The notes under the pieces are model-generated. The model made no database searches. It was not told the DNA's origin and saw only the letters and a list, made by a program, of their open reading frames with translations. Shown piece after piece: positions 1 through 6,759 of a DNA stretch of 45,675 nucleotides (within the stretch, counting starts at the first letter, position 1; every line of letters begins with the position of its first letter). The DNA comes from Chryseobacterium gleum (GTDB lineage Bacteria > Bacteroidota > Bacteroidia > Flavobacteriales_F > PHOS-HE28), in assembly GCA_945872795.1 (NCBI GenBank), contig CAMCAZ010000025.1:1-45675 (forward strand), written 5' to 3'. A program made the translations under genes and the position numbers.

Positions 1-72
1 GGGGCAGGGGCAGGAGCAGGGGCAGGAGCAGGGGCAGGGGCAGGAGCAGGGGCAGGGACAGGAGCAGGAGTA
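1..72. repeat. GGRGCA hexanucleotide tandem array
   Basis: About twelve consecutive 6-bp units, mostly GGGGCA or GGAGCA with single changes (GGGACA, GGAGTA) at the right end. The array runs off the left edge, so its full length is unknown. It ends just downstream of the four-helix-bundle gene, and a degenerate stretch of the same motif lies on the other side of that gene. Confidence 0.9.
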
Positions 73-87
73 GAATAGAGTACTGGC

Positions 88-465
88 TTACGCCTGTTTG
101 GCTACGCCATATTTTCCGGGGTTCTCGATCATGTCACCAAGCATGCGGCCTACCTCTTCAGAAAGCGAGATGATCGGTGCGATATCCTTTGGAGTGACGT
201 ATGCGCAAGCGACAGCATGGTCCAGCCATACCTGGGTCTCGGCGTTCTCTCCATCGCCGTCCGTCATCTTGGAGATGAAATGCAGCGGATATCGTTTCTT
301 CCTGTAGCCTTCAGCAAACTGCGCGGATACCGAACGGGATGACCTGCGGATCTGGTCGGTCAACGAATACCGTTCCTCAACGGGGAATCGCTTCGATAAG
401 AGAAACACCAAGTTGGCCATCTCGAAGGCCTTTTTGTACACGGTCATTTCCTTGAAGCCGCTCAT
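88..465 (-). CDS. four-helix bundle protein (S23 / 23S rRNA intervening-sequence protein family)
   Basis: 125 residues, the usual length for this family. The start (GFKEMTVYKKAFEMANLVF), the central LTDQIRRSSRSVSAQFAEGY block and the helical remainder match the S23-type four-helix-bundle family, whose members form small alpha-helical oligomers and are related in fold to the Avd accessory protein of diversity-generating retroelements. Its cellular role is not established. There is no 23S rRNA around it and no reverse transcriptase in the window, so neither the intervening-sequence nor the retroelement role is supported here. GGRGCA repeats lie on both sides, suggesting a self-contained cassette. 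A TATGTTTG -7 element lies 24 bases upstream of the start codon. Confidence 0.85.
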   Translation of the reverse strand: MSGFKEMTVYKKAFEMANLVFLLSKRFPVEERYSLTDQIRRSSRSVSAQFAEGYRKKRYPLHFISKMTDGDGENAETQVWLDHAVACAYVTPKDIAPIISLSEEVGRMLGDMIENPGKYGVAKQA

Positions 466-488
466 TGCCGATCAGGTTGAAGGGATGT

Positions 489-496
489 CAAACATA
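489..496 (-). promoter_or_regulatory. -7 promoter element (TAnnTTTG) of the four-helix-bundle gene
   Basis: On the minus strand this reads TATGTTTG, an exact match to the Bacteroidota -7 consensus, placed so that the leader would be about 20 bases. I see no convincing -33 TTG at the expected distance. Confidence 0.45.
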
Positions 497-518
497 CTGG
501 TACATCGATGATCGCTTG

Positions 519-548
519 CCTCCGCCCCTGTTCCTGCTCCTCCTCCTC
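519..548. repeat. degenerate GGRGCA repeat
   Basis: Read on the minus strand this is a run of GGAGCA/GGAACA/GGGGCG/GAGGCA-like hexamers, the same motif as the array at the left edge. Together the two stretches bracket the four-helix-bundle gene, and this one touches the end of rho. Confidence 0.6.
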
Positions 549-551
549 AGA

Positions 552-2585
<2,034 letters not shown>

Positions 2586-5487: not shown

Positions 5488-5518
5488 TTGATCGGCGGGA
5501 TGCCGGGGGATAGTTTCG
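5488..5518 (+). promoter_or_regulatory. promoter of the C5 methyltransferase gene
   Basis: TTG at 5488-5490, a 20-base spacer, then TAGTTTCG at 5511-5518. The transcript would start within a few bases of the ATG at 5527, giving an almost leaderless message. This also argues against an upstream start at 5488, which would lie inside the promoter. Confidence 0.5.
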
Positions 5519-5526
5519 CGCCATCC

Positions 5527-6759
5527 ATGGAACCCCTGAAGGTCGTAGAGCTCTTTGCCGGCGTTGGTGGTTTCCGCATCGGTCTGGAACGGGCCAGCGA
5601 TCGGTTCAGCGTGGTGTGGAGCAACCAGTGGGAGCCGGGCATCAAGCGCCAGGCGGCATCTGCGGTCTACGTGGCCCGTTTCGGCCCTGATCACCATTCC
5701 AACGCGGACATCGCATCGGTCCCGGTGAAGCACATCCCCCGGCATGATCTGCTGGTGGGCGGTTTCCCCTGCCAGGATTATTCCGTGGCGCGCACCTTGA
5801 AGCAGGCCGAGGGATTGCAGGGAAAGAAGGGTGTGCTGTGGTGGGAGATCCATCGCATCCTCAAGGCCCACGCACCGGGCTACATCCTACTGGAGAACGT
5901 GGACCGCCTGCTGAAGTCTCCCACCGGTCAACGGGGGCGTGACTTTGCAGTGATGCTGGCCTCGCTCGCCGACCTGGGCTATGTGGTGGAGTGGCGCGTG
6001 ATCAACGCGGCGGACTATGGCATGCCACAGCGCCGGCGGCGGGTGTTCTTCCTCGGCTATCACAAGAGCACACCCATCGGTAAGGCACTGCTTAAGGAGA
6101 AGAACCCCGAGGGCTGGATCATGGACCATGGGATCTTCTCCGAGGCCTTTCCGGTGGCAGAAGGCAGGCAGGGCCTGAACAGTGTGGAACTGAAAGGTGA
6201 CCTGGCGGACATCAGCCGCAAGTTCAACGCAACGAAGAAAGGGGCGAAGACCCCGTTCGGGAGCGCTGGTGTGTTGGTGGGTCGAAAGGCCCACAGCTGT
6301 TCCGTGGTGCCGGACTACAGTGGACCACGCACCGTATTGGGCGATATCGTGCTGCCCAGCGCAGAGGTGCCCAAAAGTTACTTCGTGCCGGCCGCCCAGG
6401 TCAAGGCCTGGAGCTATTGCAAGGGAGGTAAGAGCGAGCAGCGGGTGGACCGCAGCAGCGGATACAGTTACAGCTACAGCGAGGGCGCCATGTCCTTTCC
6501 CGATGCCTTGGACAAGCCATCGCGTACCATCGTCACGGGTGAAGGCGGCATCTCACCCTCACGCTTCAAGCATGTCATCCGCACTCCGGAAGGCAAGCTC
6601 CGCCGCCTCACCCCGGTGGAACTAGAACGGCTGAACATGTTCCCCGACGGTCATACCGAGGGGGCGTCGGATACCAAGCGGGCCTTCTTCATGGGCAACG
6701 CACTGGTCACCGGTGTGATCGAACGATTGGGCAGGGTCCTGGTATCCCGGGTGAAGTGA
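5527..6759 (+). CDS. DNA (cytosine-5-)-methyltransferase, solitary
   Basis: 410 residues. C5-methyltransferase motifs appear in order: motif I LFAGVGG (9-15) for AdoMet binding, motif IV GGFPCQDYS with catalytic Cys82, motif VI ENV (123-125), motif VIII QRRRRVFFLG, then a target-recognition region of about 170 residues, and motif X FFMGNALV near the C-terminus. It transfers a methyl group to C5 of cytosine in a short recognition sequence that I cannot predict. No restriction endonuclease, Vsr nuclease or specificity gene is adjacent, so it looks like an orphan enzyme with regulatory or protective use, or a relic of a restriction system. Confidence 0.93.
   Translation: MEPLKVVELFAGVGGFRIGLERASDRFSVVWSNQWEPGIKRQAASAVYVARFGPDHHSNADIASVPVKHIPRHDLLVGGFPCQDYSVARTLKQAEGLQGKKGVLWWEIHRILKAHAPGYILLENVDRLLKSPTGQRGRDFAVMLASLADLGYVVEWRVINAADYGMPQRRRRVFFLGYHKSTPIGKALLKEKNPEGWIMDHGIFSEAFPVAEGRQGLNSVELKGDLADISRKFNATKKGAKTPFGSAGVLVGRKAHSCSVVPDYSGPRTVLGDIVLPSAEVPKSYFVPAAQVKAWSYCKGGKSEQRVDRSSGYSYSYSEGAMSFPDALDKPSRTIVTGEGGISPSRFKHVIRTPEGKLRRLTPVELERLNMFPDGHTEGASDTKRAFFMGNALVTGVIERLGRVLVSRVK

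Follow-up and report, generated by a model that had tools for sequence, protein, structure and literature searches.

Genes of the S23 family are known from intervening sequences (IVSs) of 23S rRNA in Coxiella and Leptospira where, according to PMC4990558, the S23 frame sits in the loop of a stem with complementary ends, which is cut by RNase III. An old proposal has it that the ORF aids mobility, and S23 proteins are described as being without known function (PMC4990558). Heptamer repeats, GGGAATC in Xanthomonas and GGGGAYT in Nostoc, were described by Rehm 2015: a single degenerate, G-rich heptamer is arrayed mostly between genes, and in Xcc two convergent arrays lie close together in 70 cases (PMC4692102). 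TAACTGA heptamer arrays, intergenic and often ending at a start codon, were reported from Beggiatoaceae, Cyanobacteria and some Bacteroidetes (PMC4679880). The main text of PMC4692102 contains no match for xcc0516 or 'ribosomal protein', and that of PMC4679880 none for S23 or four helix. No title or abstract linking S23 genes to word arrays was present among the matches listed for the literature outside subscription journals and bioRxiv. No agent that produces bacterial heptamer arrays is known to us. REP sequences and REPINs with their RAYT transposases are inverted intergenic repeats, occurring in copies with and without the gene. PF05635 resembles Avd, the accessory protein of diversity-generating retroelements (DGRs), and a structural alignment suggests homology, according to PMC10053308.

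Here we describe an S23 gene with an array of short words on either side, at one end of a stretch of 45,675 nucleotides of DNA which was analysed as a whole and is referred to as the window. The features of the locus are as follows.

1..72, plus strand: GGRGCA array; viewed on the sense strand of S23 it is the 3' arm, with units reading TGCYCC.
88..465, minus strand: S23 / four-helix-bundle gene, 125 aa; PF05635, TIGR02436.
517..547, minus strand: 5' arm (AGGAGGAGGAGCAGGAACAGGGGCGGAGGCA), in which the array is repeated in inverted and degenerate form, given as the stretch aligning with the array.
552..2585, minus strand: rho, the upstream co-directional neighbour, named from its protein sequence; the start at 2585 is the first internal ATG, chosen by us.

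Tandem Repeats Finder reported a period of 6 with 11.3 copies (score 101) over 1-68, and also a period of 18 (score 115); since base 1 of the window is the contig end, the array at 1-72 is incomplete. GGRGCAGGRGCA was matched with at most one mismatch 19 times in the window, as against 2.13 matches expected and a maximum of 7 in 100 shuffles, and 11 of the 19 matches lie at 1-72 and two at 529-546. The protein scored 93.4 bits against PF05635 (cut-off 33.8) and 83.2 bits against TIGR02436 (cut-off 24), and a profile made from 14 S23 proteins, that of the window included, matched the solved structure 2gsc (XCC0516) with an E value of 8e-37, and also 2rld. The 5' arm starts 4 nt past the rho stop codon and holds degenerate inverted units at 523-546, the two arrays of the window being in mutually inverted orientation. 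When the 5' flank was scored against the reverse complement of the 3' flank, the locus obtained a score of 37, where a null of mismatched flank pairs has its 95th percentile at 22 and its 99th at 29. An earlier note, made from the letters of this DNA, had described a 125-codon S23 gene between a GGRGCA array and a degenerate upstream version of it, and repeat finding, profile matches and arm score confirmed this description. No Rfam match was found at the locus (window 1-1953), which places the S23 gene outside a 23S rRNA gene. The N-terminal part of rho (window 1756-1923 and 2233-2321) carries a long Arg/Gln/Asp repeat stretch and an acidic run, encoded by short tandem repeats, and an open frame on the plus strand at 5488-6759 matched PF00145, the C-5 cytosine-specific DNA methylase domain, with 208.9 bits.

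The locus is similar to a 23S rRNA IVS in that an S23 frame stands inside complementary ends able to form a stem and occurs in a scattered manner, but it lies between protein-coding genes, its ends are arrays of a lineage-specific word, and its excision by RNase III is a prediction. With its tandem array of degenerate 6-nt units in an intergenic position, it belongs with the intergenic short-word (heptamer) arrays, whose units measure about 7 nt. The heptamer arrays of Xanthomonas and Nostoc differ from it in being followed as one word type per genome, with no S23 link drawn in the passages describing them (PMC4692102), and the TAACTGA arrays, as described in PMC4679880, in being mostly direct. 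In contrast to REPINs and RAYTs, the gene between the arms is PF05635 and not a Y1 transposase, and the arms are word arrays and not one conserved palindrome. Unlike the Avd protein of a DGR, the window protein reached only 28.9 bits against the Avd equivalog NF033474 (cut-off 80), and its genome has no RVT_1 match; against the bAvd-like PF22296 it scored 37.2 bits, below the cut-off of 40.

Seven PF05635 matches at E <= 0.001 were found in the genome of the window (G000). Inverted short-word arrays adjoin all seven genes as read by eye, with differing words, namely GGRGCA, CTGGCTR, CAAGNNN (two genes), GATCAGAN (two genes) and a TGTGAGG-like word. The arm score exceeded 29 at six of them, and at the seventh (C42) both hairpin arms lie 3' of the gene. 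GGRGCA arrays in the same genome were also read as intergenic hairpins without S23 (C12, C27, C77 twice, and C2). The earlier note had tied GGRGCA to S23 and had named GGRGCA arrays without S23 genes, and S23 genes without such arrays, as evidence against its idea that gene and repeats form a cassette; both are found here. A cassette defined by GGRGCA alone was rejected, as other words stand at most S23 loci and GGRGCA itself is nothing special. The idea of a cassette nevertheless stands, because the repeat is a lineage-specific word and no single fixed motif.

Some GGRGCA arrays of G000 appear to be intragenic, encoding Ala/Pro-rich (C45:3372-3629, C11:31449-31490) or Gly/Ala stretches (C13:63880-63933, C50:15155-15178), and the word may therefore enter proteins too. 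Long open frames also span intergenic arrays in this GC-rich genome, so that frames alone are no proof of coding. One could hold that the arrays are low-complexity sequence, assembly noise or coding repeats without any link to the gene, in line with these coding-looking arrays and with the breaking of contigs within arrays (base 1 of the window; the starts of C3, C37 and C50 of G008). This explanation is already refuted by the inverted orientation of the arrays, by the null models and by the recurrence of the layout in other lineages, and we give it hardly any credence.

We extended the analysis to 151 S23 genes, 139 of them from the genus of the window and 12 from other families of the class, comprising the seven of G000, same-genus loci from a first set of matches listed (30 loci plus further ones fetched) and those of a second set down to about E 2e-7; one locus entered twice (G016:C23:284) was counted once. 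Inverted arms above 29 were found at 98 of the 151 genes and above 22 at 117, leaving 34 genes without arms above the 95th percentile. Matches of the two flanks in the same direction were fewer, with 33 above 29 and 49 above 22. Among the 12 genes from other families, four were above 29 and seven above 22, and 42 of 54 site clusters (see below) had at least one locus above 29. A clear period could be assigned at 77 of the 117 loci with arms, and was 7 at 56 of these 77; the unit of the window has 6 nt. Gene calling in 40 fixed stretches of 20 kb, taken from G000 and G010, supplied 580 control genes, of which 567 had full flanks and were scored. While 31 of the 567 were above 22, only one was above 29, and it was itself an S23 gene (G010:C1:2962839). 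The stretches of G010 were evenly spaced, whereas in G000 contigs known to carry S23 genes or GGRGCA arrays had been avoided; the G010 half, with 1 of 278 genes above 29, is therefore the fair control, G000 having 0 of 289. In the same two genomes, 4 of 4 S23 genes examined in G010 and the six of seven in G000 were above 29. A first-pass scan blind to S23 (score 34) found three tandem-word pairs in 400 kb of G000 and four in 400 kb of G010, one of the latter being an S23 locus; two of the seven pairs were doubtful (L138, L155), and the mirror control gave one pair per genome. Thus inverted word arrays stand around most S23 genes and are nearly absent around other genes. All 31 genomes of the genus with a completeness of 90% or more contain S23.

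The similarity of arms had a median of 35 for the two arms of one locus, 24 for orthologue arms, 19 for the same clade at another site and 16 for others. The arms of one locus are more alike than orthologue arms, which fits conversion within a hairpin. Such conversion is what would be expected of a passive hot spot, where arrays would arise and be evened out by replication slippage and template switching in hairpins with no part played by S23, S23 would land or be tolerated, and the match of clade and word would reflect co-inheritance; arrays and hairpins that exist without S23 agree with it. We regard a passive hot spot as an improbable explanation, as the sole strong-armed gene among the 567 controls is an S23 gene, and as the match of S23 clade and word at different sites, described next, needs joint movement.

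The word follows the S23 lineage. When each of 47 sites was represented by one locus, the word was shared by 49% of the different-site pairs whose protein similarity was at least 0.5, as against a mean of 3.6% and a maximum of 16.3% in 3000 permutations. Sharing between different sites rose with protein similarity, from 1.5% below 0.2 to 44% at 0.5-0.6, 61% at 0.6-0.8 and three of three pairs above 0.8. On an S23 tree of 110 rows (genus loci with arms above 22), word families required 17 changes, where the minimum possible is 13 and the shuffled mean 59; single linkage joined 39 loci from 21 sites into the largest of these families, which is a loose chain. Words are often conserved across species at one site, such as GATCAGA in 6 of 6 loci at site 7 and GGGTAC in 4 of 4 at site 12, and at site 2 they are not uniform, being of GTTGTCAG and GTTCGTAG type. 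The S23 protein of the window is closest to those at the HemW sites of G015 and G008 (81% and 77% identity), both with GGRGCA; its identity to the S23 of the rho site in G020, the site that it occupies itself, is lower, at 75%. The HemW site of G018 holds a different S23 clade. The match of S23 clade and word at different sites calls for joint movement of the gene and its arms. The link between word and lineage suggests that an S23 protein recognises its own word.

Comparison of 104 same-site pairs from 21 sites (50-97% identical, unsaturated) gave a median dN/dS of 0.11 and a largest value of 1.10; the S23 protein is under purifying selection. Such selection and the word-lineage link are both also consistent with S23 being a word-specific regulator that binds word arrays in RNA or DNA, its own arrays being autoregulatory and others its targets, with co-evolution taking place without any mobile cassette. 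In site clusters 0 and 1, several families share a site with S23, which likewise agrees with a regulator. However, the same clade and word occur at unrelated sites, and these sites are empty in other species of the genus, so that spread is needed too, and we consider regulation without a mobile cassette unlikely.

Based on neighbouring proteins, the 151 genes fell into the 54 site clusters, 28 of them with at least two loci. Sites occupied by the cassette include sdhA-sdhB, sufB-sufC, cysD-cysN, a position before a thiolase gene and others, all named from protein sequence. Both neighbours were co-directional with S23 at 97 of 139 genus loci, as compared to 51 of 143 small control genes; the strand caller, when checked on called genes, gave the correct strand for 392 and the wrong one for 18, and left 8 undecided. 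Filled and empty sites were read by eye in 20 of 27 rows for rho, 22 of 27 for sdhB and 22 of 29 for sufB. The C-terminal 60 residues of rho were found in 27 of 29 genomes, that of the window included. At the 20 rho loci read, S23 was present in two (G000 and G005) and neither S23 nor an array in 17, while G008 had an array hairpin of another word without S23; in G005 the S23 gene runs into a contig end; it was identified by eye alone and stands outside the 151. Between sdhA and sdhB, S23 with arms was present in five of 22 loci (G004, G006, G008, G010 and G013), where in several genomes the arms extend to a few nt from the stop and start codons; the gap measured only 8 nt in three loci, and contained a REP-like palindrome in five. 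CAACTGA-type 3' arms stand shortly before the start of the next gene at three loci (G004, G007, G009), a point of similarity to the TAACTGA arrays. The gene and its arms thus act as a unit at many sites that are empty in other species of the genus, and to this extent the cassette proposed in the earlier note is upheld; GGRGCA is not its constant part, nearly all other S23 genes examined having other words. The proposal that copying of cassettes explains the scatter of the family agrees with the many sites, and has to be complemented by inheritance at conserved sites, as 28 of the 54 clusters have at least two loci.

The REP-like palindrome, GTAGCGTCGACCCACCGGGTCGACC(TAC), was seen between sdhA and sdhB in G000, G002, G003, G009 and G011 and between sufB and sufC in G000, G009 and G016, in the very operon gaps where other species have S23 cassettes; we take it to resemble GTAG-tagged REPs. 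By eye, a gene resembling a minimal nucleotidyltransferase (MNT), with a small partner, was recognised between sdhA and sdhB at L205 (G025) and L210 (G028), two genomes of other families. That palindromes and MNT-like genes occupy the same operon gaps is a further point in keeping with a passive hot spot.

Exact pattern search in 31 genomes of the genus found GATCAGA arrays in 26, GAAAG arrays in 17 and GGRGCA arrays in 10. Arrays outside S23 loci were commoner in genomes with the matching S23 clade (one-sided p 0.004 for GATCAGA and 0.002 for GAAAG), in a comparison that ignores the kinship of the genomes. A greater number of such arrays would be expected if S23 were a regulator with targets elsewhere; many genomes, however, have arrays and no matching S23 among the matches listed. 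GATCAGA arrays, for instance, are common in several genomes without S23 of that clade among the matches listed, G013 having 21 matches. A strict rule, by which arrays of a clade occur only where its S23 is present, therefore fails, and what is seen is an enrichment. For GAAAG, the reversed-pattern control was invalid, as the array read backwards is nearly the same array. In G049:C2 (L376 1146-1640), the gene standing between inverted GATCAGA arrays has a TonB_C domain (PF03544) and is not S23; S23 is thus not the sole possible content of such arms, as a passive hot spot would also have it. Very long composite arrays of GAAAGCT- and GGAAGCT-type words were observed in G041 (C26, C90, C103, C18 and others; L380), where the GAAAG pattern has 93 matches as compared to 0-17 in the other 30 genomes.

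The earlier note had also given the S23 gene its own promoter. No sigma-70-like site was found in window 1-700. The sequence TATGTTTG, 31 nt upstream of the gene, presumably fits the Bacteroidetes -7 box. A -7-type box within 120 nt was present, however, in only 3 of 139 S23 genes of the genus as compared to 46 of 578 control genes, and a private promoter was therefore rejected as a trait of the family.

The architecture of the cassette and its spread are well supported. Our favoured reading, held with moderate confidence, is that the window contains one S23 cassette of a large class, in which a four-helix-bundle gene stands within inverted arrays of a lineage-specific word, and which is probably an IVS-type, word-recognising element outside rRNA. 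Such an element would be transcribed mainly by read-through; its arms could pair with each other and leave the S23 frame in the loop, in the manner of IVSs in 23S rRNA, and RNase III could excise it from the transcript. Recognition of its own word by the S23 protein would tie the gene to its arms, and would also let arms spread without the gene. We infer read-through and an IVS-like fold from the plan shared with rRNA IVSs, from positions likely to be read through and from the lack of a promoter box as a rule. Mismatches compatible with G.U pairing were not in excess over those of A.C type in 113 arm pairs (110 versus 99, p 0.49), thus giving no sign of selection for pairing of the RNA strand. 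The RNA duplex energy of the window flanks, -63, was unexceptional among 500 shuffled flanks (mean -51, best -67.8). These two negative tests make the IVS-like fold a weak step of the mechanism. RVT_1 had no match in 26 of the 31 genomes of the genus, G000 being without one, and Y1_Tnp none in 6 of the 31, all with S23. Neither enzyme is thus required in the same genome today, and a general dependence on a reverse transcriptase or Y1 transposase was rejected.

The layout is repeated, with different words, by S23 genes of cyanobacterial plasmids as well as by those of Gemmatirosa, of an elusimicrobial and of a Moraniibacteriota and a Scalindua genome; it recurs in cyanobacteria, Gemmatimonadota, Planctomycetes and Patescibacteria. 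Arm scores above 29 were obtained at 13 of 29 such loci (12 of 26 outside Bacteroidota), as against 2% of mismatched pairs, and 14 of the 29 were below their own 95th percentile. The set consisted of 19 of 20 plasmid loci fetched (of 23 records), with one near-duplicate Calothrix locus left out and three near-identical Trichormus/Scytonema loci kept, and of 10 of 13 further loci, three of the genus of the window being left out and three of the ten being Bacteroidota. In Azospirillum (L368), the S23 gene lies within a 23S rRNA gene (Rfam RF02541), the classical IVS position, with TCAGARGACGG-like units on both sides as read by eye; its arm score of 20 is under the threshold, and it is among the 14 low-scoring loci, so that it provides a suggestive bridge to rRNA only. 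On viral contigs, 4 of 11 S23 loci had strong arms and seven were not above 29, four of these apparently being one locus. On cyanobacterial plasmids, S23 with word arrays was seen within CRISPR-Cas operons, between cas6 and cas4 (L356, L365) or between cas10 and the Cmr3 gene (L359), the arrays on the two sides of L356 being in direct orientation. Proximity to cas genes need not, therefore, mean that an S23 gene acts in defence; in PMC10910872, the legend of a figure on CRISPR-linked genes gives the name of the family.

A wider proposal, which we advance tentatively and hold to be possible, is that the short-word arrays found across phyla may be the partners of S23 proteins, each lineage recognising and propagating its own word and carrying its gene within two inverted arrays, and gene-free arrays being its dependents. 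The rRNA IVSs, the heptamers of cyanobacteria and Xanthomonas, and the operon cassettes might then form one class, run by a small nucleic-acid-binding protein and not by a known transposase. If this is true, XCC0516 would be expected to lie between GGGAATC arrays, and S23 proteins to bind their own word. The tie between S23 genes and word arrays offers a candidate function for S23 and a candidate agent behind the arrays, and would account for the scatter of S23 genes away from rRNA.
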